Assembly: GCA_002791545.1 (NCBI GenBank)
Contig: PFXG01000010.1
Coordinates: 1 to 37,745, forward strand
Direction of reading: 5' to 3'
Origin: Zetaproteobacteria bacterium CG_4_9_14_3_um_filter_49_83
Lineage (GTDB): Bacteria; Pseudomonadota; Zetaproteobacteria; Mariprofundales; Mariprofundaceae
Length of the DNA: 37,745 bases
Below, piece by piece: positions 6,492 through 36,031 of this stretch. Position 1 is the stretch's first letter; the number at the start of each line of letters is the position of its first letter. Made by a program: the position numbers and the translations under genes. Under the pieces are notes generated by a model. The model saw nothing but the letters and a program-made list of their open reading frames with translations, was not told the DNA's origin and did not search any database.

Positions 6492-7101
6492 TCGATTAAG
6501 TCGAAGAGCGATTTCTTGGCTGTTTAGAAAAATAGAAAGAGAGCGTCAGCGTGAAGTTGGAGCAAATCTTTGCCTGTTGGGAGATGGGTCATCTTTATTA
6601 TCAGAGTCAGAAATCAATAATTTCTCTGGAAGCCCAGAAGATATTTCAATTGGCAAACAATCACACATTCGAGGAAGATTATTAACTTACGGCCATGGAG
6701 GTAAAATTTCTATCGGGGACTGGTGTTATGTGGGAGTTCGAACTGAAATATGGTCGATGGAATCAATAGAAATTGGTGACAGGGTTTTAATAGCCCACGA
6801 TGTAAACATTCAGGATGGAACTGCTCATTCTGTTGATTCGGGAGAGAGACATGCTCATTTTCGGCATATTGTTGAAAAAGGCCATCCTGAACTTGCCTCC
6901 GATCTTCCGGGAGTGTCTTCTTCCCCAGTAGTGATTGAAGATGATGTATGGATTAGTTTTGGAGTAACAATATTACGAGGTGTAAGAATTGGTAAAGGCA
7001 GTATAGTTGCTGCCGGTTCTATAGTTACACGTGATATACCCCCTGGGATGTTATACCGAAATCAGGTGACTCCAGTGATTACTCCATTACGAGTCTCATA
7101 G
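6478..7101 (+). CDS. Hexapeptide-repeat O-acyltransferase
   Basis: A 207-residue left-handed beta-helix protein of the LpxA/NodL/maltose-acetyltransferase superfamily. Imperfect hexapeptide repeats run from about residue 51 to 190 (for example ISIGDWCYVGVRTEIWS and VVIEDDVWISFGVTILRGV). A loop containing DGTAHS (113-118), with His117 as candidate catalytic base, interrupts the helix, as in acetyltransferases using acetyl-CoA. The SIVTRDIPPGMLYRNQ end is typical of sugar O-acetyltransferases. The N-terminal 30 residues are basic and amphipathic. It probably acetylates a sugar of the polysaccharide. It is coupled to the upstream glycosyltransferase by overlap. Confidence 0.88.
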   Translation: MQFFDRLSRRAISWLFRKIERERQREVGANLCLLGDGSSLLSESEINNFSGSPEDISIGKQSHIRGRLLTYGHGGKISIGDWCYVGVRTEIWSMESIEIGDRVLIAHDVNIQDGTAHSVDSGERHAHFRHIVEKGHPELASDLPGVSSSPVVIEDDVWISFGVTILRGVRIGKGSIVAAGSIVTRDIPPGMLYRNQVTPVITPLRVS

Positions 7102-7133
7102 TTTCATAAAATAACTAAATCGAAGGTGAAAAT

Positions 7134-8105
7134 GTGTCTTTCTTGAATGATATAGCCCGGAAAATTGCTGTCCCTGTTTCTCAACATATTGAAGGTGTAG
7201 TACAGCGAGCGATGTCTGCTCATAGGCAACAGATGGATGATCTTATGATTCTTCAGGGACGAGCATTAGCTGTAGAAAATAGCCGTCGTGCACCTCTTAC
7301 CAGACTTCAGGATGCTGAGTTTAAAGTGTTCTCTCAATTTGGAGAGGATGGAATTCTTCAATATCTGATTCATGAAGCTGGAATAATGAGAGATGAGACT
7401 ACATTTGTGGAGTTTGGAGTACAAAATTACGTAGAGTCAAATACTCGTTTTTTGTTGATGAATGATCATTGGCGAGGAATGATTATTGATGGAGATAAGC
7501 AGTATATGGACTCTGTTCGTAATCAGGATATTTATTGGCGCCATGACCTGACGGCGGTTAATGCTTGGATCGATAGGGATAACATTAACCAATTGATAGG
7601 TGACTCTGGCTTCAGTGGTCAGATTGGTATATTGAGTGTTGATATTGATGGGAATGATTATTGGGTTTGGGAGCGTATTGAGGTAGTTAACCCTATTATT
7701 GTTGTTGTTGAATGGAACAGTGTGTTTGGTTCACAGCATTCAATATCGGTACCGTATGACCCTTCTTTTCAGCGCGAAAAAGCTCATTACTCTAATTTAT
7801 TCTGGGGTGCTTCAATTTCCGCTTTCGAACATTTGGGAGCACGTAAAGGATATAGTTTGCTTGGCTCAAACACAGTAGGGAATAATTTATTTTTTGTCAG
7901 AAATGATAGACTTGGTCGACTTAATCCGTTGTCTTCTACTGATGCATATGTCGAATCTCGATTCCGTGATTCCAGGGATGCAAATGGAAAGCTGAACTTC
8001 CTAGGTGGGGATAGGCGTTGTTTGGAGATATTGGATTTACCTGTCGTTGATGTTGTGAGTGGTGATACTGTATCCATGCGCACTTTGGATTCCCTGCATG
8101 ACTAA
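7134..8105 (+). CDS. FkbM-like methyltransferase-related protein
   Basis: A 323-residue protein that begins at GTG 7134 behind AAGG; an ATG two bases earlier is out of frame and stops at once. The core SQFGEDGILQYL (67-78), FVEFGV (91-96), a DG turn at 119-120, GILSVDIDGNDYWVWE (165-180) and VVEWNSVFG (191-199) resemble the SAM-binding and acidic motifs of FkbM-type O-methyltransferases in polysaccharide loci. It probably methylates a sugar hydroxyl, but the glycine-rich SAM loop is degenerate (EFGVQN), so the activity is inferred. The first 55 residues look helical. It overlaps the next gene by 8 nt. Base composition is clearly AT-rich. Confidence 0.72.
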   Translation: MSFLNDIARKIAVPVSQHIEGVVQRAMSAHRQQMDDLMILQGRALAVENSRRAPLTRLQDAEFKVFSQFGEDGILQYLIHEAGIMRDETTFVEFGVQNYVESNTRFLLMNDHWRGMIIDGDKQYMDSVRNQDIYWRHDLTAVNAWIDRDNINQLIGDSGFSGQIGILSVDIDGNDYWVWERIEVVNPIIVVVEWNSVFGSQHSISVPYDPSFQREKAHYSNLFWGASISAFEHLGARKGYSLLGSNTVGNNLFFVRNDRLGRLNPLSSTDAYVESRFRDSRDANGKLNFLGGDRRCLEILDLPVVDVVSGDTVSMRTLDSLHD

Positions 8106-9003
8106 TGCTTTTCAAGCGGTAGAGGCTGGGTCTTTGAATCAAATGAGCTGGGAACAAGCAGTGCAGTGGTTGCGTGATCAGCCTGACCAACAAGAACTGG
8201 TGCGTGCCTGTTACTTTGACGACCCACTAAATGAGGCCGCTGAGCGGTTCTGGCAAAGTGCCGAGTGGAAAGCGATCGCTGCCTTGCTACCGCCTCCGCA
8301 AGGTAAGGCGCTGGATCTTGGCGCAGGGAGAGGTATAAGTAGCTACGCGATGGCCCGTGATGGTTGGCTGGTGACAGCATTGGAACCCGACCCCAGTGAG
8401 TTGGTGGGGGCTGGAGCTATCCGCTCGCTGGCTGAACAAAGTGACCTGCCAATCACAGTGGTTAGCGAATATTCCGAAAAATTACCATTTCATGATAATA
8501 GCTTTGATGTTGTTAATTGCCGCCAAGTGCTTCATCACGCCCGTGATTTGCAGCAAACCTGTCGTGAAATATTTCGGGTGATCAAGCCTGGTGGCGTGAT
8601 GGTGGCCTCCCGTGAGCATGTCATCAGTAAGCGGGAAGATATGCAGGCTTTCCTTGATTCTCACCCACTGCATAAATTTTATGGCGGTGAAAATGCATTT
8701 CTGCTTGATGAATATTTGTCAGCCATGCAACTGGCAGGTTTGCATGTGCATAAAGCTTTAGCGCCGCTTGATTCACCAATCAACTACTTTCCGATGACCA
8801 CTGAACAGCATTTCACATACTGTACTGGCCCCACAGCAGGGTTGATTGGGAAATCAATGTCAAACTTTCTCTTTAGCCAAGACCACGTATTTGGTAGAGC
8901 CTTGATGAAAATATTGGTTTCTGCATTAAATTATCGAGATCAAACGCCGGGACGCCTATATTCCTTTGTGGGTGTTAAGCCTTTGGCTGAAGGTCAAGAC
9001 TGA
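8098..9003 (+). CDS. Class I SAM-dependent methyltransferase
   Basis: A 301-residue protein from ATG 8098, which overlaps the upstream stop by 8 nt; an in-frame GTG/ATG further upstream would lie inside the previous gene. It has SAM motif I ALDLGAGRGISS (71-82), an acidic residue ending strand 2 (LEPDPS), VVNCRQVLHHARD (motif II region) and RVIKPGGVMVASREH (post-II/III). This is a Methyltransf_11-type enzyme. The C-terminal 100 residues, with FYGGENAFLLDEYLSAM, probably form the acceptor cap. Placed directly before wzm/wzt, it is a candidate for modifying or capping the exported glycan. The ribosome-binding site is weak, so translation is probably coupled. Confidence 0.88.
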   Translation: MTNAFQAVEAGSLNQMSWEQAVQWLRDQPDQQELVRACYFDDPLNEAAERFWQSAEWKAIAALLPPPQGKALDLGAGRGISSYAMARDGWLVTALEPDPSELVGAGAIRSLAEQSDLPITVVSEYSEKLPFHDNSFDVVNCRQVLHHARDLQQTCREIFRVIKPGGVMVASREHVISKREDMQAFLDSHPLHKFYGGENAFLLDEYLSAMQLAGLHVHKALAPLDSPINYFPMTTEQHFTYCTGPTAGLIGKSMSNFLFSQDHVFGRALMKILVSALNYRDQTPGRLYSFVGVKPLAEGQD

Positions 9004-9878
9004 TGCTGCAAGACAATGTATCGGAAAAACAATCTGTAAAGAACATTCGCACTTATGAAGCATCAGACGAAGTCTTGGGGCCGATTAATTCAATAAGACT
9101 GGCATACCTAGAGATTTACTGGTCGCGACACGTACTTTGGCACCTTTTTGTGCGCGATTTTGTGTCTGGATTCAGACAAAAATTACTTGGCTATCTTTGG
9201 ATTGTTCTGATGCCCTTGATAGGAATAGCCAGTTTTGTATTCATGCAGTCAACAGGTATCTTAAATCCCGGGAAAACTGAAATTCCATACCCTATCTATG
9301 TTTACATAGGAACAACTATTTGGGGGTTACTTATAAATGTACTTACAACCGTTGCAAATGGGTTGATAACTAATAGCGACCTGATTATGCGAACTAATAT
9401 TCCAAAAATAGGGCTGGCTGTGACAGGTTTGGCTTCAGTTTGTTATAATCTTATTGTTAATTTAGTAGTTCTATTGGTGCTTCTATTAGTTCTTAGTTTG
9501 CCACCATCACCATGGGCACTTCTGTATCCTTTGATGATTCTTCCGATTATCATGTTAGGTGTAGGAATTGGACTTATTTTATCGGTGGTTGGTGCTGTTG
9601 CACGAGATATGACAGGTATGTTTACCACCGTGATCAACCTTCTGATGTATGTGACTCCCGTGATTTATACAGCACAATTTTCAGAACCATTACTCAAACT
9701 AGTAGTTCAGTGGAATCCACTTACCTATCTGGTTGATGTCCCGCGTAGCCTATTTATGTTAGGTGAAATGCCAAATCCAATAGGATACTCACTGGCTATC
9801 CTTTTTTCAGTTGTAGTAATGAGCCTGGGTATTCACGCATTTTACTTAATCAAAGATAAAGTGGCGGAGCGACTATGA
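9003..9878 (+). CDS. wzm: Polysaccharide ABC transporter permease (Wzm)
   Basis: A 291-residue inner-membrane protein of the ABC-2 type, RfbA/KpsM family. It exports completed lipid-linked polysaccharide across the inner membrane with the Wzt ATPase. After an N-terminal cytoplasmic part there is the amphipathic FVRDFVSGFRQKLLGYLWIV segment typical of the family, then about six membrane segments (roughly 68-85, 97-118, 140-168, 172-198, 203-222, 258-282). The motif WNPLTYLVDVPR near the end is characteristic. The ATG overlaps the upstream TGA by one base, and its own stop overlaps the wzt start (ATGA). Confidence 0.95.
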   Translation: MLQDNVSEKQSVKNIRTYEASDEVLGPINSIRLAYLEIYWSRHVLWHLFVRDFVSGFRQKLLGYLWIVLMPLIGIASFVFMQSTGILNPGKTEIPYPIYVYIGTTIWGLLINVLTTVANGLITNSDLIMRTNIPKIGLAVTGLASVCYNLIVNLVVLLVLLLVLSLPPSPWALLYPLMILPIIMLGVGIGLILSVVGAVARDMTGMFTTVINLLMYVTPVIYTAQFSEPLLKLVVQWNPLTYLVDVPRSLFMLGEMPNPIGYSLAILFSVVVMSLGIHAFYLIKDKVAERL

Positions 9879-11233
9879 GTGATAATGAATGGGCCATCCG
9901 TGCCGAGGGAATTTCAAAAAAGTTCGGTCTTACTTTGCGTCAATCTATGAAATTTGGCTTGCGAGATGTTGCCCGTAAACTTGCAGGTCGCCTTAGTACC
10001 AGCAGTGTGTTGCGTGAAGGAGAATTCTGGGCTGTAAATGATGTCAGTTTTGAGGTTCGAGGCGGAGAAGCACTCGGCATCATGGGGGTCAACGGCTGTG
10101 GTAAAACAACATTGCTACGCATGCTTAATGGCGTGTACGCCCCAGATGCAGGGCGAATTCAAATGAAAGGCCGGGTAGGCGCGATGATTGCTGCTGGGGC
10201 GGGTTTTGCTCCTATGCTCTCTGGTCGCGAAAATGTTTATGTTAACGGTACATTACTTGGTCTTACAACCAAGGAAATCGATGGCTTGATGGATGAAATT
10301 ATTGCTTTTTCGGAACTCGGGCACTTTATTGACCTGCCTGTAAAAAATTACTCTAGTGGAATGTATGTCCGACTCGGTTTTGCCATCGCAGCATTAAGCA
10401 GTCCAGATGTATTACTGATGGATGAGGTACTGGCAGTTGGGGATCTTAATTTCCAAAAGAAGTGTTTTGAACATATTCTTAAGTTAAAACGACAGGGAAC
10501 AGCAATTATTCTCGTTTCACACTCTCCCGGAGCTATCTGGTCTGTTTGTGATCGAGGCTTGTTTATGGATCGAGGAAGAGCACTTGTCGATGGTTCAGCA
10601 GAGGATGTTATTCGTGCATATGATGATCAGAACTCACGGAATTCCGTCACATCAAATGCACAATTCGACAAAGCCGTCGCAGAGCACGAAGGATCTTCTA
10701 AAGATGGTGACACAAAAGCCGAATACGGTCATTCAAAAGGTGGCACTGGGGATGTGGTTTGCAACAGCGTTAGTATTCATAGTGAGAACAGTGCTGTTCA
10801 AACAGGTGAATTCAAATTTGGTGAATCCTTTCTAATTTCTGCTGATATTGAAGTATTGCAGCCTCAGGAAAACTTACTTCTCCGATTCACTATTGATGCG
10901 GTGCATTACAGGTTTATTGCAACAATAGATAGTTATGAACAAGGCCTTCATTTGAAAACCGTACCACCAGGACGTTATCAGCTTAAGGTTCAGGTTCAGA
11001 ACCCTAACTTTCGACCAGGAGCTTATACACTTAACGTTGGTATCACGAGGAAAGAAGTGGGGGTACATCTATTCTACTGGTTTAGTGCAGCCCGATTTAT
11101 CGTTACACACCCCAATGATATATTCCTTTATGCAGATAATAATGCAGTCATGTATCTTGATAGCACATTCTCATTAACACCCATTGAAATCGATGATTCG
11201 GGCATGATTTTTTCAGTTTCGAGAGTTGACTAA
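9875..11233 (+). CDS. wzt: Polysaccharide ABC transporter ATPase with C-terminal glycan-binding domain (Wzt)
   Basis: A 452-residue ATPase that partners Wzm. Nucleotide-binding motifs are Walker A GVNGCGKT (71-78), signature YSSGM (159-163), Walker B VLLMDEVLAVGD (179-190) and H-loop His216. Residues about 250-300 form a polar linker. Residues about 300-452 are a beta-rich Wzt_C-type domain (GEFKFGESFLISADIEV, then RPGAYTLNVGI). In E. coli O8/O9a this domain recognises the terminal cap of the finished chain, and export depends on it. Its presence predicts chains ended by a specific modification, which fits the methyltransferases that follow. It overlaps wzm by 4 nt. Confidence 0.96.
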   Translation: MSDNEWAIRAEGISKKFGLTLRQSMKFGLRDVARKLAGRLSTSSVLREGEFWAVNDVSFEVRGGEALGIMGVNGCGKTTLLRMLNGVYAPDAGRIQMKGRVGAMIAAGAGFAPMLSGRENVYVNGTLLGLTTKEIDGLMDEIIAFSELGHFIDLPVKNYSSGMYVRLGFAIAALSSPDVLLMDEVLAVGDLNFQKKCFEHILKLKRQGTAIILVSHSPGAIWSVCDRGLFMDRGRALVDGSAEDVIRAYDDQNSRNSVTSNAQFDKAVAEHEGSSKDGDTKAEYGHSKGGTGDVVCNSVSIHSENSAVQTGEFKFGESFLISADIEVLQPQENLLLRFTIDAVHYRFIATIDSYEQGLHLKTVPPGRYQLKVQVQNPNFRPGAYTLNVGITRKEVGVHLFYWFSAARFIVTHPNDIFLYADNNAVMYLDSTFSLTPIEIDDSGMIFSVSRVD

Positions 11234-11234
11234 T

Positions 11235-11969
11235 ATGAATGATGTCCAGGCCAACTGCCAAGATGTAAAAAATATATTTACTGTCCCTCGTGAAAATATC
11301 AGAGGTATTCGGCCTCCAAAGTTGAATCTCGGATTTATTTGGGAGTTTATTCGAGATGGCAGAACCCCTGCACGGGCAATGACTGATCAGGCTATGCGAT
11401 CATTATTACCAGCTCTTGAAGGAACAGGGGAAATTATTGAACTGGGAGCTGGTGGGGATTATTACAAGGCGTATGTTCAACCTGATCAGCAGTATATCAC
11501 AAGCAACCTGTTCCCCGGCAGCGATTTGATATTGGATATGACAAGCCTTGATTTGGAAGGAAATTCTGTAGATGCATTGGTTTCAGTGTTTGCTTTAGAG
11601 CACTTGTTTGATTTTGAAGCCTCTTTTCGGGAGCAGTACCGAGTACTAAAGCCAGGTGGAAGACTACTTTTAATTGTGCCATTTATGTATTATTACCATG
11701 CAGCACCAGATGACTACTTTCGTTTTTCATCTTCGGCGCTTGATAAGCTTTTGGAGCCATTCGATATAATTGTTAGGCAACCTCTTGGAGGGCGGTGGCT
11801 TCTATTTGCAGAGTTTCTTCATGAAAAGAAGGAAATGGGTTCAAGCCTTGGTTCTTTTTCACGATTATTGCTTAGGTGCTTGGCGTTACCTTTCCTTACA
11901 TGTGCATTGAAGAATCATGATCCTCAATATGCTGTTGGATTTTCATATTTATGTGAGAAACCTCAGTGA
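11235..11969 (+). CDS. Class I SAM-dependent methyltransferase
   Basis: A 244-residue protein from ATG 11235, one base after the wzt stop; an in-frame TTG at 11226 would overlap wzt. Motif I is IIELGAGGDYY (67-77), followed by DMTSLDLEGNSVDALVSVFALEHL and VLKPGGRLLLIVPF (137-150), with YYYHAAPDDYFRFS resembling sugar or small-molecule methyltransferases. It is first in a run of four consecutive methyltransferase genes after wzt. The acceptor cannot be read from sequence; by position it may methylate or cap the glycan chain. It overlaps the next gene by GTGA. Confidence 0.85.
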   Translation: MNDVQANCQDVKNIFTVPRENIRGIRPPKLNLGFIWEFIRDGRTPARAMTDQAMRSLLPALEGTGEIIELGAGGDYYKAYVQPDQQYITSNLFPGSDLILDMTSLDLEGNSVDALVSVFALEHLFDFEASFREQYRVLKPGGRLLLIVPFMYYYHAAPDDYFRFSSSALDKLLEPFDIIVRQPLGGRWLLFAEFLHEKKEMGSSLGSFSRLLLRCLALPFLTCALKNHDPQYAVGFSYLCEKPQ

Positions 11970-12862
11970 TATTCTCGAATATTATCCATCGCATAAGACA
12001 GCACCTTTCTCACTTGTTAAGAATAGTTGCTGATAAACTATGGGACGAATCGGTTAGTAAAAAGCAAGGGTCTGCCCCCTATTCATCTGAAGGATGGGAT
12101 CACATTCCTCAAGGTCAATATGACTATGTTCCTAAGGGTACATACATTTATGGTCAAGCAGATAAATTTTTACTTGTTCCCAAGAATCGCTATCGTACAG
12201 TACTGTTGCCTGATCAGTCGCGAAGCGCTGCTCTTGGTGTTGGCTGGATCACCGAGGATAACTCGGCACAGGGTTATGACGAGCTGTGGGGCGATGCTAC
12301 AAATTTAGAAAGTTTTCGTAGCGAGGCTGATCATGTTCGGGATAAGTTGACGATTGAGATTATTGATCATATCGAAGCCTTTATACAGCCGAATGCGCAG
12401 GTGGTAGATATTGGGTGCGGTATAGGCGACCTACTAGGCGAAATTCAAAAACGGCGACCATCGGTTGGGGTCTGTGGACTGGACTTCTCAGCCAAAGCAG
12501 TTGAAGGCGCACGAAATGCTATGCCTGATGGCGAATTTATTCAGTTCGTTATTGAACAGACACTGCCCTACGAGTCCGACTCGTTTGATGTGGTGTTATG
12601 CACGGACGTTCTTGAGCATTTGGAGCACCCTAGGCTGGTGGCATCAGAACTGGTGAGAATTTGTAGAGCGGGCGGGATGGTTGCTATCGTGGTTCCGGAT
12701 GGTGATGTCGATCAGTTTTTCGGTCATTACTGGTTTTGGAATGAGCAAAGCTTTGCAGCCCTGCTATCCGAGTGGGATGCCAAAGTTACTCGCCTGCCGG
12801 AAACTCGCGAGTTTATTGCCTGCATCTCTGTAGTTTTCGTAGGGGCTGGCAGCTATGTTTGA
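11966..12862 (+). CDS. Class I SAM-dependent methyltransferase with N-terminal extension
   Basis: A 298-residue protein starting at GTG 11966, overlapping the preceding TGA (GTGA). Residues 1-140 are an uncharacterised extension with a Tyr/Pro-rich stretch (EGWDHIPQGQYDYVPKGTY). The methyltransferase core then follows: motif I VVDIGCGIGDL (146-156), VCGLDFS with the acidic strand-2 residue, FDVVLCTDVLEHLEHPRLV, and ICRAGGMVAIVVPDGD. The LEHL pattern is typical of Methyltransf_11/23 enzymes of polysaccharide loci. It overlaps the next gene by 8 nt. The extension has no feature I recognise. Confidence 0.85.
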   Translation: MIFSNIIHRIRQHLSHLLRIVADKLWDESVSKKQGSAPYSSEGWDHIPQGQYDYVPKGTYIYGQADKFLLVPKNRYRTVLLPDQSRSAALGVGWITEDNSAQGYDELWGDATNLESFRSEADHVRDKLTIEIIDHIEAFIQPNAQVVDIGCGIGDLLGEIQKRRPSVGVCGLDFSAKAVEGARNAMPDGEFIQFVIEQTLPYESDSFDVVLCTDVLEHLEHPRLVASELVRICRAGGMVAIVVPDGDVDQFFGHYWFWNEQSFAALLSEWDAKVTRLPETREFIACISVVFVGAGSYV

Positions 12863-13802
12863 TAAGCTATTGGCATTTTTTGAGCGGATTCAAATCTCCT
12901 GTGTTGCACGTTTGATGCGAAGTCTTGCTAAACGTAGCCTTGATCATAGTGCAATACCAGATCAAACACTTTCTGGTTTGTTACCATTGTGGAATCAGTT
13001 GGTTGTTTCAAGAAGTGTAGCAATGAAACCAGAATTGGTTGCGGAAAGTTTGGCTGCTTTGCTGAATGGCCAACCGCTCTCCACATCTATTGATTTGGCT
13101 CGTTCTTTATTAATTGAACAATTTCCGCCTGAGGCTTGGCCACTTATTCCTTCGATGAATAAACGTGATGCTCCTGTTATGAGTACATGGACATTTCAAA
13201 ACGAGGTCATGGAGTGGGATATCGCTGCTAACGAACTGGTGCTGGATATCGGTTCGGGCGGTTGGCCATTCAAGCGAGCAAATCATCTGGCGGATAAATT
13301 TCCAGATCAAACTACTCACCGTGTTGAGAATATGGTGCGTGACGAACGGCCATTTTTTGAAGTTGATCTTGAATATTTACATTTTGATGATCAAACTTAC
13401 GATTTTGTTTTTTGTTCTCATGTGCTTGAGCATCTGGATAATCCCGGTCAGGCCATGCGTGAATTGATGCGTGTTGGGCTGCGTGGTTATATTGAGGTGC
13501 CAACACGGCTGTCGGATGTAATGTTCAATTTTACACGATTGCCAAATCATCATCGCTGGCATGGTATGGTGTTAGATAAAACACTGGTGTTAGTTGAATG
13601 GAATGAATGGGAAAGGCGTGATCTGGGAAATCAGTTTTTTGATGCGCTACAGAGTGAATTCTCAAACGCATTTCAGGATTTCTTTGAACACAATCGTGAT
13701 CTGTTTTTTACCTCTTATCACTGGGAAGGGGTGATAAACTTTTTAATCATTGATAAGCAAGGGCGAATTATAGATTCGTCGGGAGGCAATGTTAATGCAT
13801 GA
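12855..13802 (+). CDS. SAM-dependent methyltransferase-like protein
   Basis: A 315-residue protein with ATG 12855 overlapping the upstream stop. The first 115 residues are helical and unrecognised. The Rossmann part has LVLDIGSGGWPFKRA as motif I (about 129-143), FEVDLEYLHFDDQTYDFVFCSHVLEHLDNPGQAMREL, and a shortened post-motif GLRGYIEVPTRLSD in place of the usual LKPGG. It ends with a TSYHWEGVINFLII segment. The SAM site looks usable, but loss of the canonical PGG turn leaves activity less certain than for its neighbours. It overlaps the large fusion gene by 14 nt, so the two products are probably co-translated. Confidence 0.75.
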   Translation: MFDKLLAFFERIQISCVARLMRSLAKRSLDHSAIPDQTLSGLLPLWNQLVVSRSVAMKPELVAESLAALLNGQPLSTSIDLARSLLIEQFPPEAWPLIPSMNKRDAPVMSTWTFQNEVMEWDIAANELVLDIGSGGWPFKRANHLADKFPDQTTHRVENMVRDERPFFEVDLEYLHFDDQTYDFVFCSHVLEHLDNPGQAMRELMRVGLRGYIEVPTRLSDVMFNFTRLPNHHRWHGMVLDKTLVLVEWNEWERRDLGNQFFDALQSEFSNAFQDFFEHNRDLFFTSYHWEGVINFLIIDKQGRIIDSSGGNVNA

Positions 13803-16596
13803 CTTCGATATGCGTGATATACGTTGCGTAGCTTGCGGCGGTGAGAATGTCACTCGTTCTAAAGGTGATGAGTCAGCGTTTCAATGTTCCGAATGTGCAT
13901 TGACATATCAACGGGTTTGGGGGGTACCATTCTTCGGTCAGTATGAAGGGGAAGATATTCCCGGTTTGATTGAAATTGCTGCGAATGTTGTTAACAGAGG
14001 CAAGTTCGGTGTTAACCCTGAAGTGGTGGAGGATTGGGAGAGATTGTTATCGTCCTATGATCAATCGGAAAACAAGTCTGAGTTTATTAAAAGCAATCCT
14101 AATGCGCAGTCCCCATTCTTGTTGAATCGCTATGGCGAATGGCAGGAAGTAACGCACCTGACGCGTGATTTGGATTTACAAGGGTGCAAAGTTTTGGATA
14201 TGGGTGCTGGTCTAGGGTTTGACAGCCATCGCCTATCAATGTTGGGGGCTGATGTAACAGCATTGGAGTTTTCGCCAGTGTTGGCCGAATCAGGTCAGCT
14301 TAATTTTCCGAAAATCCGTTGGATTGGTGGGTTTTCTCACTGCCTTCCCTTTAAGAAGGCTAGTTTTGATGCTGTTTTTTGCAATGCAGCGTTACATCAT
14401 ATGCGCGATATCCCGGCTGCAATTTCCGAAGCATTGCGTGTATTGCGTCCAGGCGGGGTATTGATTACCACGTGTGATTCATTCCGGCCTAACGACTCTG
14501 ATGATGAGGCAGAGTTAAAAGTTTTTGATAGCGATCCTACAGTGTTACTTGGTGTAAACGAAGGAATCCCAAAATTCACTGATTTTGTTTCAACACTGCA
14601 TTTACACCCGAATTTATTGGAAGTGGAGTTGTATACACATACACTTTATAACACTTTTGCAACGTTGACGGAGCTGACACGCTGGGACTGGAATAAAGAT
14701 GAGGCCATGTTGTCTAAACGCAACGGCTCATTGGCTATGCGGGTGCGCCTTAAAAGTTGTTGGCCGGAGCCCGACAGGCTGCAAGTAAATAATGTGTTGG
14801 CCGCCGATAAGTATGTGTCGTGGATGAGCTCTGCGGCCGTTGCCGTAGCAAAGCTGGCATCATTGATGCCGTCACATTATGTTGATTTACCCTTTCCTGG
14901 AACTAAGGGTTCGAAATTTGAGTTGCTCAACGGTTGGCGTGCACCCAAGCCATTTCACCAGGCTCGGATAGCATACCAACGGGGGCGCTGGTTTCTGAGC
15001 CGCTCAGCGGAACAGGATACAATTATCTTTGATCTGGGACTTCCTACTGCAAGTGCTTCCAAAGTTGGTTCATTGGCTGTGCTGCTGAATGGTGATGTCT
15101 GTGGTGATTTTCCAGTTAGTCAAGGTGGCTGGAATCGCGCATCGCTGGATGTTTCTCATATCCCGATGGGTCAGGTTTTTGCGGTTGAAATACAACGAAA
15201 TGCTGGGGAAGGGGATTCTTTAGATGAGGCATCTTTTGTTGTGCGTAATCGCCGTTTTATTTCTACTCGGAAGCTTCCAGCACTATCGGAAAGGGAAGAG
15301 TTGCACGAGCCTAGCGAAGCAACTGTGTTTGCAATCATACCTGTCTTTAATCGCCTTTGTTTTACGCTTGAGTGTATACAAAATCTAAAAGATCAGAGTT
15401 ACAAATCTATCAGAATCATCGTGGCGGATGGCGGTTCCACGGATAACACTGTAGAGACTATTCACGCCAAACATCCAGATGTGCTAGTGCTGGAGGCTGA
15501 AACAGAGTTGTGGTGGGCTGGTTCCATGGCGATGGGAATTGATCATGTTATGATTGAAAGCCAAGATGAAGAAGATTGCGTTTTGATGATTAACAACGAC
15601 ACGCAGATACCTGAGGACTATGTGGAGACATTGATTCTAGCCTCCCAAACTTATGATGCTGCGGTTGGTGCATTGGTAGTTGATAGTCGTGATGCAAGCC
15701 AAGTGTTGGATGCGGGGGAATATATTGATTGGGCAAGTTATTCATTTCCGGTAAAGAATGACATCGATGTCGATGAAAGTTTTTGCGATGATGTGGATGT
15801 ACTGCCTGGGCGAGGAAGCTTAGTTCCATTACGAATGATTCGCACTGCAGGAAATGTGGATGCAAATATGTTTCCCCACTACCTGGCAGATTACGAGTTT
15901 TTTTATCGCCTTAAAGAACATGGTTTCCGAATGGGCATTTGTTACGAAACGCGTATACTTGCACACATTGAAGAAACTGGAATTATACCGAGTAACGGAA
16001 TATCCGGATTTAGTACCATTTGGCGCGAACTTTTTTCCCGACGTTCGATGAGTAATATTGTTGATCACTGGCGTTTTGTTGGCCTCCACGCTCCAGAGCA
16101 GTATCGTGTAAATATACAGCTCAGTTTGATGCGACGAGTACTTGTTGACCTTACGTTGCGCACGCCTCTCCGACCTTTATTTATACCACTGTATTGGTTG
16201 AGGTGTTTACCAAGGCGTATATTCTCTCTTATTCAAGGGCAGCGAAGAACATTTGCTCTATTTGCTCGTGCCATCAGAGAAGATGGTATCAGCGTGCTTT
16301 GTAATCCACAAAAATTTCCAGGCTTGATTCGTATGCCACTTTATCTTGTGGCTTCTCCCGGACCTCTTAATCGTGTAACTATTGAACAACAGGGGCTGGT
16401 TGTTGATGAACTGCTCACTCAGGGGATATTGCGCAGCCTAAGAGTGAACGAATGGTACGCATTGGAAACGCTCGAATTCTCCGATAAGCCCGAAGCTACA
16501 AAATTAAAGCGTTTTTTTTGGTCTGCATGGAATCCACTACGTAAGTTCACTAATTCACATGCATGGAAAGATTTGCTGAAAAAGGTCGAAACATGA
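13789..16596 (+). CDS. Methyltransferase-glycosyltransferase fusion (935 aa)
   Basis: A multidomain protein starting at ATG 13789 behind GGGAGG. In order: an N-terminal zinc ribbon CVACGG...CSEC (Cys13, 16, 33, 36); a class I methyltransferase with motif I VLDMGAGLGFD (135-145), FDAVFCNAALHHMRD and LRPGGVLIT; a beta-rich region (about 375-490) with repeated short strands resembling a jelly-roll glycan-binding domain; then a GT2 domain with FAIIPVFNR (514-522), DGGSTDNT (547-554), TELWWAGSM (572-580), INNDT (601-605) and ADYEFFYRLKEHG (700-712). The last 200 residues are basic and unrecognised. The WWAGS and DYEF pattern occurs in rhamnosyltransferase-like GT2 enzymes. The architecture recalls the chain-terminating WsaE of Aneurinibacillus, which joins a methyltransferase to glycosyltransferase domains. 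I infer a bifunctional enzyme that adds and methylates a sugar; donor unknown. Confidence 0.88.
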   Translation: MLMHDFDMRDIRCVACGGENVTRSKGDESAFQCSECALTYQRVWGVPFFGQYEGEDIPGLIEIAANVVNRGKFGVNPEVVEDWERLLSSYDQSENKSEFIKSNPNAQSPFLLNRYGEWQEVTHLTRDLDLQGCKVLDMGAGLGFDSHRLSMLGADVTALEFSPVLAESGQLNFPKIRWIGGFSHCLPFKKASFDAVFCNAALHHMRDIPAAISEALRVLRPGGVLITTCDSFRPNDSDDEAELKVFDSDPTVLLGVNEGIPKFTDFVSTLHLHPNLLEVELYTHTLYNTFATLTELTRWDWNKDEAMLSKRNGSLAMRVRLKSCWPEPDRLQVNNVLAADKYVSWMSSAAVAVAKLASLMPSHYVDLPFPGTKGSKFELLNGWRAPKPFHQARIAYQRGRWFLSRSAEQDTIIFDLGLPTASASKVGSLAVLLNGDVCGDFPVSQGGWNRASLDVSHIPMGQVFAVEIQRNAGEGDSLDEASFVVRNRRFISTRKLPALSEREELHEPSEATVFAIIPVFNRLCFTLECIQNLKDQSYKSIRIIVADGGSTDNTVETIHAKHPDVLVLEAETELWWAGSMAMGIDHVMIESQDEEDCVLMINNDTQIPEDYVETLILASQTYDAAVGALVVDSRDASQVLDAGEYIDWASYSFPVKNDIDVDESFCDDVDVLPGRGSLVPLRMIRTAGNVDANMFPHYLADYEFFYRLKEHGFRMGICYETRILAHIEETGIIPSNGISGFSTIWRELFSRRSMSNIVDHWRFVGLHAPEQYRVNIQLSLMRRVLVDLTLRTPLRPLFIPLYWLRCLPRRIFSLIQGQRRTFALFARAIREDGISVLCNPQKFPGLIRMPLYLVASPGPLNRVTIEQQGLVVDELLTQGILRSLRVNEWYALETLEFSDKPEATKLKRFFWSAWNPLRKFTNSHAWKDLLKKVET

Positions 16597-17747
16597 GCAA
16601 GCCATTGAGGCAACTTACGATTGGCATCGAGTTGATTGATGATCCAGCCTGGATGGGTGGAACGCTCTACCTAAGAAATCTAGCGATATGTCTTGCTCGT
16701 TTGCCTGAGTCTGAGCAGCCGCAGGTGCGCTTGCTTGGTGCCCCTGACGTTGTATCGCGCTTTCTTGCTGAATGGGGTCATTTACAGATTTTTAACTCAA
16801 CAGTAGTAGATACCAAGTTGGGGCGATTTTTAGGGCGCATTGGCTTGCCTGCGAAGGCAGAAGCACCAGTTGATGTGGTCTATCCAGGATTTGGTACCCA
16901 AATTCCTAGAGCGGTTACGATACGCTGGATTCCAGACTTTCAACATCGTTATCTACCTCACCTTTTCTCATCCACCGAAATAGCTGCTCGGGACAAGTCC
17001 ATAGGAGCGATTGCGGAGCAACCGGGCGTGGTGATTTTGAGTAGCGAAGTAGCTGCAGAAGATTTTTGTCGTTTTTATCCCGGTCACAGGGCAACACCTC
17101 GTGTTTGGCATTTTTGTTCGCAGCTGGATACCACCAAGCCTGCATCTCACAGATCACTTGAGCAGTATAATCTACCTGAAAAATATCTCTATCTGCCGAA
17201 TCAGTGCTGGGTGCATAAAAACCACATCACAGTTTTGAAAGCTCTGGCTCGATTGCGCCGGGAATATGGCATGATCGTCCCTCTGGTTTGTACTGGTGCT
17301 CAGTCTGACCATCGTAATGAAATACATTTTGCATCTCTGATAAAGTTTATCGAGGATAGTGAGATGACCGATCAAGTTTATTTATTGGGTTTGATTGATC
17401 GAAACGATCAGGTGAATGTATTACGCCACGCAACAGCCGTGGTTCAGCCCTCGTTGTTTGAAGGTTGGAGTACGGTAGTAGAGGATGTTCGTGCGACTGG
17501 CCGCCCCATTTTTCTATCCGATATTTCAGTACACCGCGAGCAAGCGCCGAATACCTGTTTTTTCTTTTCGCCAGAGTCGGATGAACAACTTGCATTAATG
17601 TTGTTGGACAGATGGTCTGATATGCAATCAGGCACTGACCCCTTAGCAGAGGAGATTGCACGAGTAGAGTTGAAAACAAGAATTTTAGAGTCGGCGCGGG
17701 TATTTTGTGATATTGCACAAAATGCACGGACCAACCAAATATATTGA
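16593..17747 (+). CDS. GT4-family glycosyltransferase
   Basis: A 384-residue GT-B enzyme. The ATG at 16593 overlaps the previous TGA (ATGA) and has AAAGG upstream; an earlier in-frame ATG at 16563 lies inside the preceding gene. It has the N-domain start IGIELIDDPAWMGGTLYLRNL, WIPDFQHRYLP (112-122), PNQCWVHKNH (202-211) and the GT4 donor-site motif PSLFEGWSTVVEDVRA (286-301) with the E-x7-E pair Glu290/Glu297. The final 60 residues are helical. It is clearly paralogous to the gene at 18674 (shared WIPDFQHxYLP, RFYP, PRVWxFCS, NQxWxHKxH). It probably transfers one residue of the repeat unit. Confidence 0.9.
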   Translation: MSKPLRQLTIGIELIDDPAWMGGTLYLRNLAICLARLPESEQPQVRLLGAPDVVSRFLAEWGHLQIFNSTVVDTKLGRFLGRIGLPAKAEAPVDVVYPGFGTQIPRAVTIRWIPDFQHRYLPHLFSSTEIAARDKSIGAIAEQPGVVILSSEVAAEDFCRFYPGHRATPRVWHFCSQLDTTKPASHRSLEQYNLPEKYLYLPNQCWVHKNHITVLKALARLRREYGMIVPLVCTGAQSDHRNEIHFASLIKFIEDSEMTDQVYLLGLIDRNDQVNVLRHATAVVQPSLFEGWSTVVEDVRATGRPIFLSDISVHREQAPNTCFFFSPESDEQLALMLLDRWSDMQSGTDPLAEEIARVELKTRILESARVFCDIAQNARTNQIY

Positions 17748-17778
17748 AATTCAGCATACTATATTTAGAGAGTGATTT

Positions 17779-18543
17779 ATGATTACTAGAATAATTAATC
17801 GGTTAAAGAGAGTTATTCGACCGAATGTGTTGCAAGATATAGCTCTCGAGGCTGACCTGCTGTCTCAGCGAGGGATGGTGAATCGATTGCTTCAGGAACC
17901 ACATTGGGAACGTAAAATTGAAATCTATAATTGCTATGAATATTCAAGTGAGCAGGGCGTTTGGCTAAAAAAGAAGTCTAAGTATAGAGTGTCTGATACA
18001 GCGTGTGCAGATGTACTGTTAAGTGGGCAGGAATTAAAAAAAATAAATTATGGCTGCGGGGGGAACCTTAAAGAGGGGTGGTTAAACGTCGATTTATTTC
18101 CAAATGATGCGCCTAATTACAAGCTTATTAATTTACTTGAAAAGCATCCATTCCCAGATAACACGACACAGTTTGGTTTCTCAGAGGATATGCTTGAACA
18201 CTTGAATCAAGCAGAATCAATTTTTCTTATAAGTGAAATTTACCGGACTTTGGCAATTGGCGGGGTGTTGCGCTTAAGTTTCCCGGGGTTGGAAGGCGTC
18301 TTAAACAGACATTATTTGCCAGCGTCAGAGCTTAGGGTGAGGCAAGGCGAATTTGAGGCATATGCATTTTGGGATCATATTCATTTCTATTCAAAAGAAG
18401 AGCTATGCCTTGTGGCTAGACACATAGGGTTTAAAGAAATTGAGTTCGTTGAGTATGGGAAATCCAAACATTCTGACTTGTGTGGTCTAGATACGCGCTT
18501 TACCCAAATTGGTCTGAATACATATGTTGAGTTGACAAAGTGA
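17779..18543 (+). CDS. SAM-dependent methyltransferase-like protein
   Basis: A 254-residue protein between the two GT4 paralogues. After a basic helical N-terminus, the core has KINYGCGGNLKEGWLNVDLF (88-107), a pattern of predicted SAM-dependent methyltransferases in cell-envelope loci. EDMLEHL and SEIYRTLAIGGVLRLSFPGLE stand in for the usual LEHL and LKPGG motifs. The tail contains the DHIHFYSKEEL element common to this group. The acceptor is unknown. A 130-bp gap follows before the next gene; it is AT-rich and shows no promoter or terminator I can support. Confidence 0.8.
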   Translation: MITRIINRLKRVIRPNVLQDIALEADLLSQRGMVNRLLQEPHWERKIEIYNCYEYSSEQGVWLKKKSKYRVSDTACADVLLSGQELKKINYGCGGNLKEGWLNVDLFPNDAPNYKLINLLEKHPFPDNTTQFGFSEDMLEHLNQAESIFLISEIYRTLAIGGVLRLSFPGLEGVLNRHYLPASELRVRQGEFEAYAFWDHIHFYSKEELCLVARHIGFKEIEFVEYGKSKHSDLCGLDTRFTQIGLNTYVELTK

Positions 18544-18673
18544 CCCTCCCCCTTCTTTTTCTTCACGTGCCAGGAGGTCTGCTTGAAACTTTCCTTCTGA
18601 CTTTGAGTATGGCACAGGTATTGATTAGCATTACTGGAAATGATGTTTCTAGGGTTTTAACAGGTCGTTTGGT

Positions 18674-19900
18674 TTGAATACATCTGATTCGATCCGTGAT
18701 ACTGTGAAAGCAGCGAGTCTTATTGTTGAATTTATGGAGGATGCTAACTGGCTGGGTGGTTCGGTCTATATAGAGAATTTATTATCCACCCTTTCATTAT
18801 TACCAGAAACATCCCAGCCAAAAGTTGAGCTTCTTTTTCTTTCGTCTCCTAACTCGCCGACTGCCAGGCGGTTGTTGAGTTATCCGATTGTCCAGAATAA
18901 TGGAGATGGGCTTGATCTTCTCAATGAAATGGTGGTGATCATGCGTGGCTTCTATCGCCGAATTGGTATGCGATTTCCATGCCTTCGTTACTTGTCGTTT
19001 TCTGCAAGGAAAGGGGTTTATTTCCCGGTTTTCGACATATCGCAACCGAGGCGTAGAAACCTTTATTGGATTCCTGACTTTCAGCATCATTATCTTCCAG
19101 AGTTATTTAGTGCTTCAGATCTGGAACGAAGAAATCATCGATATGAGAGAATTGCTCAGGCTGAAGGAATTCTGTTGTTATCCAGTCAGTCTGCTTTAAA
19201 AGACTTCAGACGATTTTATCCCAATGTAAGCGTGGAACCTCGTGTCTGGTCATTCTGCAGCAGTGTTAAAGTAGACGATTCCGAGAGCTATCATTCTGTT
19301 CTGGAGAAATACAGTTTGCCCGCTAAGTTTTTATATGTGGCGAATCAGTTTTGGATGCATAAGGATCATAATACGTTATTTGAGTCATTGAGGCTATTGC
19401 ACGAAAAAGGAATTGATGTTCCGGTCGTTTGTACCGGGAAAGAAGAGGATCCGAGAAATCCGGAGTATTTTTCTTCACTGTGTGAAAAGTTGGCCCGTCA
19501 TTCAGTTAAACAGGTGTTTTTTCTCGGGATTATACCACGCAGTGAACAGATTCAGTTATATCGTTTTGCGGCAGCGGTTGTTCAGCCCTCCCAATTTGAG
19601 GGATGGAGCACGGTTATTGAAGATGCTAAAGCTTTAGGCCGCCCTATTATCGCTTCAAGTATTGATGTGCACAAAGAACAACTGCAGTGGGTTGAAAATG
19701 TACATTTGTTCAGAGCATCTGATCCAGTACATCTTAGTGAATGCATTGAAGTGTTATGGCCTGATTTGACAAGCGGCCCGGATATGGGTGCAGAAAAGTT
19801 GGCGGCGAAACGAAATGATATAAGGCGTATTGAATCAGCAAAAGCTTTTATGGTAATAGTTGAGGAGGCCATGACCTATCCTCAATGTAGAAAAACGTAA
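18674..19900 (+). CDS. GT4-family glycosyltransferase (paralogue of 16593 gene)
   Basis: A 408-residue GT-B enzyme. The frame opens at TTG 18674 with a weak AGG nearby; the next candidate, GTG 18704, would still keep the conserved LIVEFMEDANWLGG start, so the N-terminus is uncertain by about 10 residues. Motifs are WIPDFQHHYLPELFSASD (132-149), NQFWMHKDHN (224-233) and donor-site PSQFEGWSTVIEDA (305-318). Compared with the gene at 16593 it has the same order of conserved blocks but considerable divergence between them, so the duplication is old or the two were acquired separately. It should add a different, or successive, sugar of the same class. Confidence 0.88.
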   Translation: MNTSDSIRDTVKAASLIVEFMEDANWLGGSVYIENLLSTLSLLPETSQPKVELLFLSSPNSPTARRLLSYPIVQNNGDGLDLLNEMVVIMRGFYRRIGMRFPCLRYLSFSARKGVYFPVFDISQPRRRNLYWIPDFQHHYLPELFSASDLERRNHRYERIAQAEGILLLSSQSALKDFRRFYPNVSVEPRVWSFCSSVKVDDSESYHSVLEKYSLPAKFLYVANQFWMHKDHNTLFESLRLLHEKGIDVPVVCTGKEEDPRNPEYFSSLCEKLARHSVKQVFFLGIIPRSEQIQLYRFAAAVVQPSQFEGWSTVIEDAKALGRPIIASSIDVHKEQLQWVENVHLFRASDPVHLSECIEVLWPDLTSGPDMGAEKLAAKRNDIRRIESAKAFMVIVEEAMTYPQCRKT

Positions 19901-19914
19901 AGGGTGAACGAATA

Positions 19915-21747
19915 ATGTGCGGAATTAGCGGCTTGATTTCTCGTTACGCGATTAACGAAACTGATGCATCAGTGGTCAGGAATATGAATCAGAGACTTGA
20001 ACATCGAGGACCTGACTCTGAAGGATTCTTTTCTACAAAGCATGTGATGCTGGCGATGCGCCGCCTTTCTATTATTGATCTTGCAGGTGGCAAGCAGCCG
20101 ATCTTCAATGAAGAAGGCGATAAAGCAATTGTATGCAATGGGGAGATATACAATCACCATAAATTACGAGAGGAGCTTGAATCTCTTGGTCATCATTTCT
20201 CTTCTAATAGTGATGTTGAAACTGTTTTGCATGCTTATGAGGAGTATGGGATTGATTGCTTACAAAAGCTGCAGGGTATGTTTGCATTTGCATTATGGGA
20301 TGGAGCAGCGAAGAAGCTGTTGATTGCACGTGACAGGATGGGAGAAAAACCTTTATATCTGCATCAGGATGAAGGTGGGCAGTTATGGTTTTCCAGTGAA
20401 TTGCGCAGTTTGACCGAGGCGATAGCAAGCCCACAATTAACTCCTGAGGCATTCAATCTCTTTTTGAGCTTTCAATATATTCCAGAACCATTGACGCCGC
20501 TAAGAAATGTTGATGTGCTGCCAGCAGGTCATTATATTGAGCTTGATTCTGAATCAATCGTGATCAATCCAAAACCTTTTTGGGATATGACTCTGGCACA
20601 TGCAGATCCTTCACAGCCAGTGATAGTGACTGAGGAAATTCTTGACAATGCCTGTCGCATGATGGGATGTGCCGATGTGCCTGTTGCTATAGCTCTTTCA
20701 GGAGGTATTGACTCTAGTCTGGTTGCTGCGCTTACCGCGCGCCATTATCCGGGGCAACTGCATGCTTTTACGATTGGCTATAAAGGTCGTCCGGCTACTG
20801 ATGAACGAGCATTCGCTGCTACTTTGGCAAAAGAGTTGGGGATTGGATTTACCGAAGTTGAAATTGAAACATCGGATGTCATCGAAGGATTTCCAGCCTT
20901 ATTGGCGGCAATGGATTCACCTATTGGAGATATTGCTGCTTTTGGTTATTACTCGGTATGCAAGGCAGCAAGGGAGGCTGGATATCCGGTGCTTCTCTCG
21001 GGGATGGGCGGAGATGAGTTTTTCTGGGGATACGAGTGGGTGCGAGAAGCTGTTGTAAGGAATGAGAATATTCTGGCAGGTAATACGACAAGGCAGCCAT
21101 GGTGGAAACGATTGTTTTTCAAGGAAAAGCCGCAATATCCTGATTTCTTTGGAGTACACCCCGATTTATGTAATGGCGATGGGTGGTCCCGCTCACTTAT
21201 GCCCTCTAAAATGCGTGAAAGTTTAATTGCTGGCTACTGGCTTGATCAGGCTTCTTTGGATCTATCCCGTCCGGTTCATCAAGCGGTTTCGGAATTGTTA
21301 AATCGAACATGGTTACGGTCAAACTGTCTGGCTTTGGTTGACCGCATGGGCATGGCACACTCGGTAGAGGTAAGGTTGCCATTGCTAGATGTGGAGCTCA
21401 TCAATCGAGTTGCAGGGATGCGTAACGATGGATTGGTGGACTGGATGAAACCTCATAAATGGCTGTTGGTTGAGGCGCTTAGCGATGCGCTTCCCAGAGA
21501 AGTTCTTTCACGTAAGAAGCAGGGATTTACTCCGCCGATTAGTGAGTGGATGAATGGTATTATCAAGCGTTTTTCCCCTTTGATCACTGATGGAGCACTG
21601 CTTCGCCAAGGATTGTTGGATTCAGAGCTTTTGAAAAGTAAATGGTCTAGCTTTGATCTTCCTTTTCAATATAAGCTAACATTGCTTGAGTGTTGGGTGA
21701 GGTTACATATAGAAATGCAGTCTGTTGATGGGCTGCTGAAAAGGTGA
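19915..21747 (+). CDS. asnB: Asparagine synthase-like glutamine amidotransferase
   Basis: A 610-residue class II glutamine amidotransferase of the AsnB family. The nucleophile Cys2 follows the initiator Met (MCGISG); the glutaminase domain has RGPD (31-34) and NGEIYN (75-80). The synthetase domain has the PP-loop SGGIDSS (262-268) and the LLSGMGGDEFFWGY segment. In cellular metabolism AsnB makes asparagine, but homologues in O-antigen and capsule loci (such as WbpS) are thought to amidate sugar carboxylates. The ugd gene 1.3 kb downstream makes a uronic acid the likely substrate. It has an AAGGG ribosome-binding site. The symbol marks the family, not a proven reaction. Confidence 0.9.
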   Translation: MCGISGLISRYAINETDASVVRNMNQRLEHRGPDSEGFFSTKHVMLAMRRLSIIDLAGGKQPIFNEEGDKAIVCNGEIYNHHKLREELESLGHHFSSNSDVETVLHAYEEYGIDCLQKLQGMFAFALWDGAAKKLLIARDRMGEKPLYLHQDEGGQLWFSSELRSLTEAIASPQLTPEAFNLFLSFQYIPEPLTPLRNVDVLPAGHYIELDSESIVINPKPFWDMTLAHADPSQPVIVTEEILDNACRMMGCADVPVAIALSGGIDSSLVAALTARHYPGQLHAFTIGYKGRPATDERAFAATLAKELGIGFTEVEIETSDVIEGFPALLAAMDSPIGDIAAFGYYSVCKAAREAGYPVLLSGMGGDEFFWGYEWVREAVVRNENILAGNTTRQPWWKRLFFKEKPQYPDFFGVHPDLCNGDGWSRSLMPSKMRESLIAGYWLDQASLDLSRPVHQAVSELLNRTWLRSNCLALVDRMGMAHSVEVRLPLLDVELINRVAGMRNDGLVDWMKPHKWLLVEALSDALPREVLSRKKQGFTPPISEWMNGIIKRFSPLITDGALLRQGLLDSELLKSKWSSFDLPFQYKLTLLECWVRLHIEMQSVDGLLKR

Positions 21748-21754
21748 TTTGCTA

Positions 21755-22684
21755 ATGTCTGAAAAGAAAACTGTAATTGTTACAGGTGCTTTTGGAACCA
21801 TCGGCCGGCAAGTTGCTTCAGCACTGGCTTTATGCGATTGGTACGTGGTCGGCGTAGGCCATGGACGATGGGGCGTTGGTGAGCAGAACAAGTGGGGAGT
21901 ATCTGTTTGGAATGAAAGGGATATAACTTTAGAAAGCCTGCGTGAATTAGCGGTGAAACCGGCACTTGTCGTTCATTGCGCTGGTAGTGGCGATGTCGGG
22001 GCCTCAGTAAGATCACCTCACACAGATTTTATTCGTACTGTAACAACTACTGCTGCAATGCTTGAGTTTTTAAGAAACGACTGCCCCGATGCATCGTTTG
22101 TTTACCCTTCAAGTGCGGCTGTATACGGAGTGGTAAATCAATTTCCAATGAAAGAGGGGGTCTCTGGACAGCCTACCTCGCCGTATGGCGTTCATAAGAA
22201 AATTGCCGAAGAAATGGTGGTTGAATATGCGCGCCTATTTGGTTTGAAAGCTTCTGTAGTTCGTTTGTTTTCAGTGTATGGGGAAGAGTTCCGTAAGCAG
22301 TTGCTGTGGGATGCATGTCAGCGAATTTCTTTGAACGAGTCTTTGTTTTTTGGAACTGGCGAAGAAACGAGGGATTGGTTACATGTTGACGATGCTGCTC
22401 GACTTTTGATTCAAGCGGGAAATTACGCTTCATCGTTATGTCCGATTGTTAACGGGGGATTCGGAGAGTCTGTCTCGGTTAGAAATGTATTAACTGATAT
22501 ATTTCGGTTGATGGGCCGAAATGATCAGCCAAGCTTTTGTGGAACCCAGCGGCCTGGAGATCCAGTTCACTATCATGCTGATATTGGGGAGGCTTTGGCT
22601 TGGGGGTGGCGGCCTGAAGTTTCCTGGAAAGATGGTTTGGCTCGGTATGTTTCTTGGTTCAGGAAGGAACATGATTTAGATTGA
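21755..22684 (+). CDS. NAD-dependent epimerase/dehydratase (extended SDR)
   Basis: A 309-residue protein starting at ATG 21755, 7 bp after the asnB stop; a TTG at 21749 adds two residues. The NAD-binding loop is VTGAFGTIG; the active site has PSSAAVYG and the catalytic SPYGVHK (Tyr-x3-Lys), followed by RLFSVYG. RDWLHVDDAARLL is the usual sugar-nucleotide epimerase segment. It is therefore a complete nucleotide-sugar epimerase, dehydratase or reductase, and the exact substrate cannot be assigned. It ends just 2 bp before a block of inverted-repeat elements. Confidence 0.88.
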   Translation: MSEKKTVIVTGAFGTIGRQVASALALCDWYVVGVGHGRWGVGEQNKWGVSVWNERDITLESLRELAVKPALVVHCAGSGDVGASVRSPHTDFIRTVTTTAAMLEFLRNDCPDASFVYPSSAAVYGVVNQFPMKEGVSGQPTSPYGVHKKIAEEMVVEYARLFGLKASVVRLFSVYGEEFRKQLLWDACQRISLNESLFFGTGEETRDWLHVDDAARLLIQAGNYASSLCPIVNGGFGESVSVRNVLTDIFRLMGRNDQPSFCGTQRPGDPVHYHADIGEALAWGWRPEVSWKDGLARYVSWFRKEHDLD

Positions 22685-36029: not shown

Positions 36030-36031
36030 AG

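Follow-up and report, generated by a model that had tools for sequence, protein, structure and literature searches.

The window analysed here is a stretch of 37,745 nucleotides from a zetaproteobacterial genome, and one of its genes encodes a zinc ribbon, a class I SAM methyltransferase, a beta-sandwich and a GT2 glycosyltransferase in a single frame of 935 codons. All four modules had been described at these coordinates by a sequence-only reading of the DNA, and all of them are present (Table 1). The same reading had allowed for an artefact joining two genes, which was ruled out, since the full-length protein is encoded by six other genomes, likewise in one continuous frame with no internal stops. 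A ribosome-binding-like ggagg upstream of the gene suits the in-frame ATG at 13795, and for this reason we consider this codon the probable start, giving a protein of 933 aa. The 5' end of the gene overlaps the preceding one and its 3' end overlaps the following one at 16593-16596, so that translational coupling with both neighbours appears likely.

Table 1. Features of the fusion gene and of the cluster around it (positions in the window; residues of the 935-codon frame).
Feature	Coordinates	Strand	Basis
Shared polysaccharide cluster around the fusion	5523..22684	+	Gene-by-gene matches in L016-L021 and L041; G+C
Wzm (9003-9878) and Wzt with C-terminal binding domain (9875-11233)	9003..11233	+	ABC_tran and Wzt_C on 9875-11233
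Upstream methyltransferase-like gene, overlaps the fusion	12855..13802	+	Methyltransf_11 E 3e-9; Tardiphaga neighbour 62% identical
Fusion gene, 935 codons	13789..16596	+	Uninterrupted frame; full-length homologues in 6 other genomes; ggagg 13781-13785
Zinc ribbon, residues 10-48, CxxC...CxxC	13816..13932	+	C13, C16, C33, C36
Class I SAM methyltransferase, residues about 111-330 (core 131-235)	14119..14778	+	Pfam, motifs, Foldseek
Helical connector, residues 331-390, FPG..SKFELLNGW motif	14779..14958	+	AlphaFold helices; motif conserved
Beta-sandwich, residues 391-493, 8 strands	14959..15267	+	AlphaFold domain model; PDB fold matches
Variable linker, residues 494-511	15268..15321	+	Conservation, pLDDT
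GT2 domain, residues 512-740, motifs GGSTD, ELWWAGS, NNDT, DYEFF	15322..16008	+	Pfam, conserved motifs
C-terminal cationic amphipathic helices and tail, residues 741-935	16009..16593	+	AlphaFold, hydrophobic moment, charge
Downstream GT4 glycosyltransferase, ATGA overlap with the fusion	16593..17747	+	Glycos_transf_1; Tardiphaga neighbour 59% identical

The fusion is located 2.5 kb downstream of Wzm and Wzt (the ABC exporter) within a polysaccharide cluster. On the 5' side of Wzm this contains a GT2-like gene, a hexapeptide acyltransferase, a protein with no Pfam match (FkbM-like by eye) and a methyltransferase, and on the 3' side of Wzt methyltransferase-like genes, the fusion itself, two GT4 glycosyltransferases, another methyltransferase-like gene, an asparagine-synthase-like protein and an epimerase. 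Most of these genes are collinear in the other clusters carrying the fusion (as far as the contigs extend) and in plasmid p1 of Sinorhizobium sp. B11 (L041), mostly at about 50-77% identity. Wzm and Wzt were both matched in L016, L017, L019, L020, L021 and L041, the contig of L018 beginning past them, and the methyltransferase-like genes 11966 and 12855, which follow Wzt and precede the fusion, are missing from L016 and L017. The G+C content of the cluster is about 44% versus 54% in the recG/manB flank, a difference that fits acquisition by transfer. Elsewhere in the window, positions 34539-37330 carry a flippase-like and a weak polymerase-like gene (Wzx/Wzy type), and the presence of an ABC exporter and of Wzx/Wzy-type genes in one locus suggests that two polysaccharide clusters adjoin here. 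A frame of 182 aa at 4643-5191 resembles the start of a dTDP-glucose 4,6-dehydratase, is far shorter than normal and is perhaps a remnant, and the gene at 24327-25424 encodes a GT2 whose C-terminal part, some 80 residues, looks beta-rich by eye.

The cysteines of the zinc ribbon are invariant among the 18 relatives aligned. The methyltransferase is matched by Methyltransf_11 (PF08241) at residues 136-226 (E 9e-18; 65 bits against a cut-off of 21), and it has the SAM-binding Rossmann core of the class I enzymes, with motif I and the acidic loop. Its motifs VLDMGAGLGFD and NAALHH are conserved, and VLDxGAGLGFD and LEFSP are invariant in the fused set. The top Foldseek ranks were occupied by class I methyltransferases, among them TleD, MitM, RebM, AtmM and RlmA(I), and the solved relatives include natural-product sugar O-methyltransferases such as AtmM and RebM. 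In the full-length AlphaFold model (mean pLDDT 80, pTM 0.58) the methyltransferase half is well supported and the middle of the GT2 is poor (pLDDT below 50 in 629-674).

Residues 340-510 had been read from the sequence as a beta-rich segment, possibly binding glycan, and as a spacer that may be new. Fold prediction did find a beta-sandwich, which two AlphaFold models place at about residues 393-491 (mean pLDDT of the domain model 86), although the segment opens with three short helices (339-345, 349-357 and 376-380). The best PDB fold matches of the beta domain were CBM51, CBM36, CBM6, CBM22, the cellulose synthase subunit BcsB and similar jelly-roll domains, and the matches were weak (E about 1e-4, 10-15% identity, match-normalised TM about 0.5 at most). 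Neither this domain nor the C-terminus had a useful sequence match in Pfam, in PHROGs or among solved structures, and no Pfam CBM family matched the domain. The structural comparison supports a CBM-like domain at the level of the fold only, which does not show glycan binding. In the linker that follows, none of the residues 496-511 is invariant (0% in the seven fused proteins) and pLDDT falls below 50 at 495-508.

The GT2 domain is matched by PF00535 at residues 516-635 (E 3.5e-16; 60 bits against a cut-off of 23), and it has a GT-A domain with the DxD-like NNDT and the acidic base region expected of a GT2. Its motifs are conserved in the seven fused proteins (NNDT and LADYE are invariant), all of which keep the catalytic motifs of both enzymes. 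About 200 residues had been left without a family in the initial reading. Pfam still offers none for 740-935, but the C-terminal ~175 residues can now be described as amphipathic helices of cationic character, followed by a small tail. AlphaFold predicts a long helix at 795-838, amphipathic and containing prolines, the hydrophobic moment is 0.64 both at 814-831 and at 905-922 (both inside amphipathic helices, which span about 803-831 and 903-923), and the net charge is +12 for residues 741-860 versus -25 for 511-740. Helices of this kind are as expected for a peripheral membrane attachment, which we infer for the C-terminus of this protein.

In order to find relatives we have scanned 84,980 species genomes with a pattern derived from the alignment of three of these proteins. 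This provided 17 confirmed relatives of useful length, a lower bound, since a protein had to keep two methyltransferase peptide patterns in order to be found. Six of them are full-length fusions (52-59% identity), from Rhizobium leguminosarum Vaf-46, Rhizobium sp. R635, Tardiphaga robiniae, Nodosilinea, Cyanobium and an uncultured lake bacterium, and the domain order is therefore not unique to this genome. The other eleven (28-44% identity) consist of ribbon, methyltransferase, helices and beta-sandwich without this GT2, and are found in three Acetobacteraceae, Elstera, two Novosphingobium, Caulobacteraceae, a Bacteroidetes bin, Methylobacteriaceae, Desulfovibrio and Desulfobulbaceae. Because the unit occurs in these eleven genomes without the GT2, the beta domain is assigned to the methyltransferase half, and ribbon, methyltransferase, helices and beta-sandwich are, by this comparison of sequences, one unit. 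That the beta domain follows the methyltransferase in all eleven rules it out as an accessory of the GT2, and the idea of a spacer specific to the fusion had to be abandoned. Some of the unfused units adjoin glycosyltransferase genes (for example, directly upstream of a GT2 in L012/L031) and some are near Wzm/Wzt-like genes (for example, L024 and L030). Two unfused proteins (L029 5604-5904 and L030 10316-10790) have another C-terminal extension, of 100-160 residues and with no Pfam match.

The distribution of these proteins is sparse. Among 398 genomes of the phylum, 6 matched at E <= 1e-20, including one other full-length protein and one methyltransferase-beta relative, and the beta-domain profile was strong in 3. 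One genome out of 18 was positive in the genus of the Tardiphaga genome, of 396 Rhizobiaceae genomes sampled, one had the GT2 half in full length, and in the window's own family (100 genomes, queried with the middle or the C-terminal part) there was no match beyond the window's own genome. One locus from the same phylum as the window (L011, genome G288) is identical in sequence to that of Tardiphaga robiniae (L021). In a maximum-likelihood tree of the methyltransferase-beta half (midpoint-rooted and with long branches) the seven fused proteins are set apart by a branch with support 100/99, for which a single fusion event would be the simplest reading. The protein of the window and the pair from Rhizobium form a group (96/96). 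Both cyanobacterial proteins are placed among those of proteobacteria, as would fit a cluster that has apparently spread across phyla by transfer.

The cluster of Sinorhizobium B11 provides the opposite case. Here the GT2 is a separate gene of 444 residues, 52% identical to the GT2 of the fusion over 465 aligned residues, and the transporter is kept, whereas ribbon, methyltransferase and beta-sandwich are absent from the cluster stretch. Each half of the fusion is thus found without the other, the GT2 in this plasmid and the methyltransferase unit in the eleven genomes mentioned above. Positions 9100-10050 of this locus, upstream of a shortened homologue of the window gene at 11966, are AT-rich and without long frames, where the other clusters may have the methyltransferase-like gene found at 11226 in the window; this stretch possibly reflects decay or replacement. 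The Wzt binding domain of Sinorhizobium B11 shares 65-66% identity with its counterparts in the Rhizobium clusters, which bear the methyltransferase half, and 38-44% with the rest. Altogether, the binding domains of the window, L019 and L021 resemble each other at 54-61% and those of L016, L017 and L041 at 65-87%, with L020 apart, while the nucleotide-binding domains of these seven clusters are 70-97% identical. At least two types of binding domain on a near-constant ATPase suggest that export specificity has been swapped within one kind of cluster. The type of the Wzt binding domain does not go with the presence of the methyltransferase half, since L041 has no such half and yet is of one type with L016 and L017, in which the half is present.

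The explanation we favour, and to which we would give an even chance, is that of a bifunctional enzyme of the Wzm/Wzt pathway, peripherally attached to the membrane. The C-terminal GT2, held at the membrane by the amphipathic helices, would add one sugar to the lipid-linked chain at the inner membrane face, and the N-terminal unit would O-methylate the same glycan, probably at the sugar just added or at one close by, with the beta-sandwich positioning the chain for methylation. The methyl group would be a decoration more likely than an obligatory export cap. Coupled addition and methylation are supported by the conservation of both sets of catalytic motifs, by the recurrence of the cluster neighbours and by the methyltransferase relatives that act on sugars. 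The glycosyltransferase genes beside some unfused units, the CBM-like fold of the beta-sandwich and the GT2 and Wzt type kept by Sinorhizobium B11 also speak for this explanation, whereas the weakness of the fold matches of the beta domain and the poorly modelled part of the GT2 count against it.

The initial reading had suggested an enzyme that adds and then caps. In such an enzyme, the methyltransferase half would methylate the end of the finished chain as in WsaE, growth would stop, and the binding domain of Wzt would read the methylated end for export. WsaE is the closest architecture described, with an N-terminal methyltransferase that caps the chain near wzm/wzt (PMC2943079), and the Wzt of the window does have a C-terminal Wzt_C domain, the kind for which recognition of capped ends is established (PMC11231755). 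However, the known Klebsiella terminators have a coiled-coil ruler (PMC11231755), and a rough heptad script found no convincing stretch of 35 residues in the protein of the window, whose one long helix (795-838) is amphipathic and includes prolines. In this it differs from polymerase-terminators such as WbdD, WbbB and O7 ORF6, which have an extended coiled coil beside the terminator. Moreover, Sinorhizobium B11 keeps its GT2 and a Wzt of the Rhizobium type without any methyltransferase half, although this loss is no proof that the half is dispensable, since other methyltransferases of the cluster could replace it. The indifference of the Wzt type to the methyltransferase half and the lack of a detected ruler speak mildly against an obligatory cap-and-export enzyme, and a terminator, possible as it is, appears somewhat unlikely to us. 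We consider it quite improbable that each half has its own step or its own target residue and that the fusion merely fixes their stoichiometry or co-localises them in the synthesis complex. The linker without invariant residues and of low model confidence would agree with this, as would the finding of each half alone, but the fused proteins, seven in all, make up a single clade in which the fusion has been kept across phyla, which suggests that the coupling is useful. That the methyltransferase half modifies a nucleotide sugar or lipid-linked precursor, the GT2 taking a pre-methylated donor, is very improbable in spite of the several small-molecule sugar methyltransferases among the solved relatives, since the glycan-binding-like beta fold and the fusion to a transferase fit a polymer substrate better and the GT2 exists without the methyltransferase half.

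Returning to coupled addition and methylation, a bolder version would be a transferred cluster, present in cyanobacteria and several proteobacterial lineages, in which a single polypeptide adds and methylates and its methyltransferase-linked beta-sandwich, a domain not described before, holds on to the glycan as it grows and picks the residues to be methylated without a coiled-coil ruler; we regard this as speculative and unlikely as a whole. In any case, the family illustrates modular enzyme evolution in the synthesis of surface glycans, with a methyltransferase-beta unit and a GT2 that are separate elsewhere, were joined apparently once and have spread across phyla together with a Wzm/Wzt cluster. 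A natural comparison for Wzt recognition, and for the methyl group as a decoration or as a cap, is offered by the Sinorhizobium cluster, which has no methyltransferase half, and by the two types of Wzt binding domain.

Among known systems, RlmA(I) (PDB 1p91), a zinc-ribbon methyltransferase with an rRNA substrate, was a Foldseek match to the methyltransferase half and differs in being without a beta-sandwich or glycosyltransferase. WreM of Rhizobium etli is a glycosyltransferase with a methyltransferase domain, responsible for the 2-O-methylation of an internal fucose, a dispensable decoration, and is alike in being a bifunctional glycosyltransferase-methyltransferase of O-antigen synthesis. 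WbdD of E. coli O9a/O8 is also a SAM methyltransferase of a Wzm/Wzt pathway, but this terminator (kinase-methyltransferase or methyltransferase) has a coiled coil and no glycosyltransferase (PMC3482155; PMC11231755), while the protein of the window has a GT2, no Pfam match to a kinase domain and no WbdD chain among its matches in the solved-structure search. Fusions of the two enzymes in glycan pathways with ABC transporters are already known, namely WsaE and ORF6 of Klebsiella pneumoniae O7. The latter, a methyltransferase-kinase, likewise serves an O-antigen pathway with an ABC transporter and combines methyltransferase and GT2 modules in one polypeptide, and differs in its kinase, coiled-coil ruler and two GT2 modules (PMC11231755), none of which was found in the protein of the window. 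The order ribbon, methyltransferase, helices, beta, GT2, which had been thought possibly new, is common to the seven genomes and was not found described in open papers (most subscription papers lay outside this scope), nor was a beta-sandwich in such a methyltransferase unit. The resemblance to WsaE of the Geobacillus stearothermophilus S-layer glycan proposed by the sequence-only reading is borne out, as this is a real fusion of glycosyltransferase and methyltransferase in a Wzm/Wzt cluster with all catalytic motifs kept. Both have an N-terminal methyltransferase (the 2-O-methyltransferase cap domain in WsaE) and glycosyltransferase in one chain near wzm/wzt (PMC2943079). Judged by its description, WsaE has two glycosyltransferase domains and a demonstrated 2-O-methyl cap activity (PMC2943079), whereas here there is a single Glycos_transf_2 stretch, and the zinc ribbon and the beta-sandwich are additions of the protein of the window.
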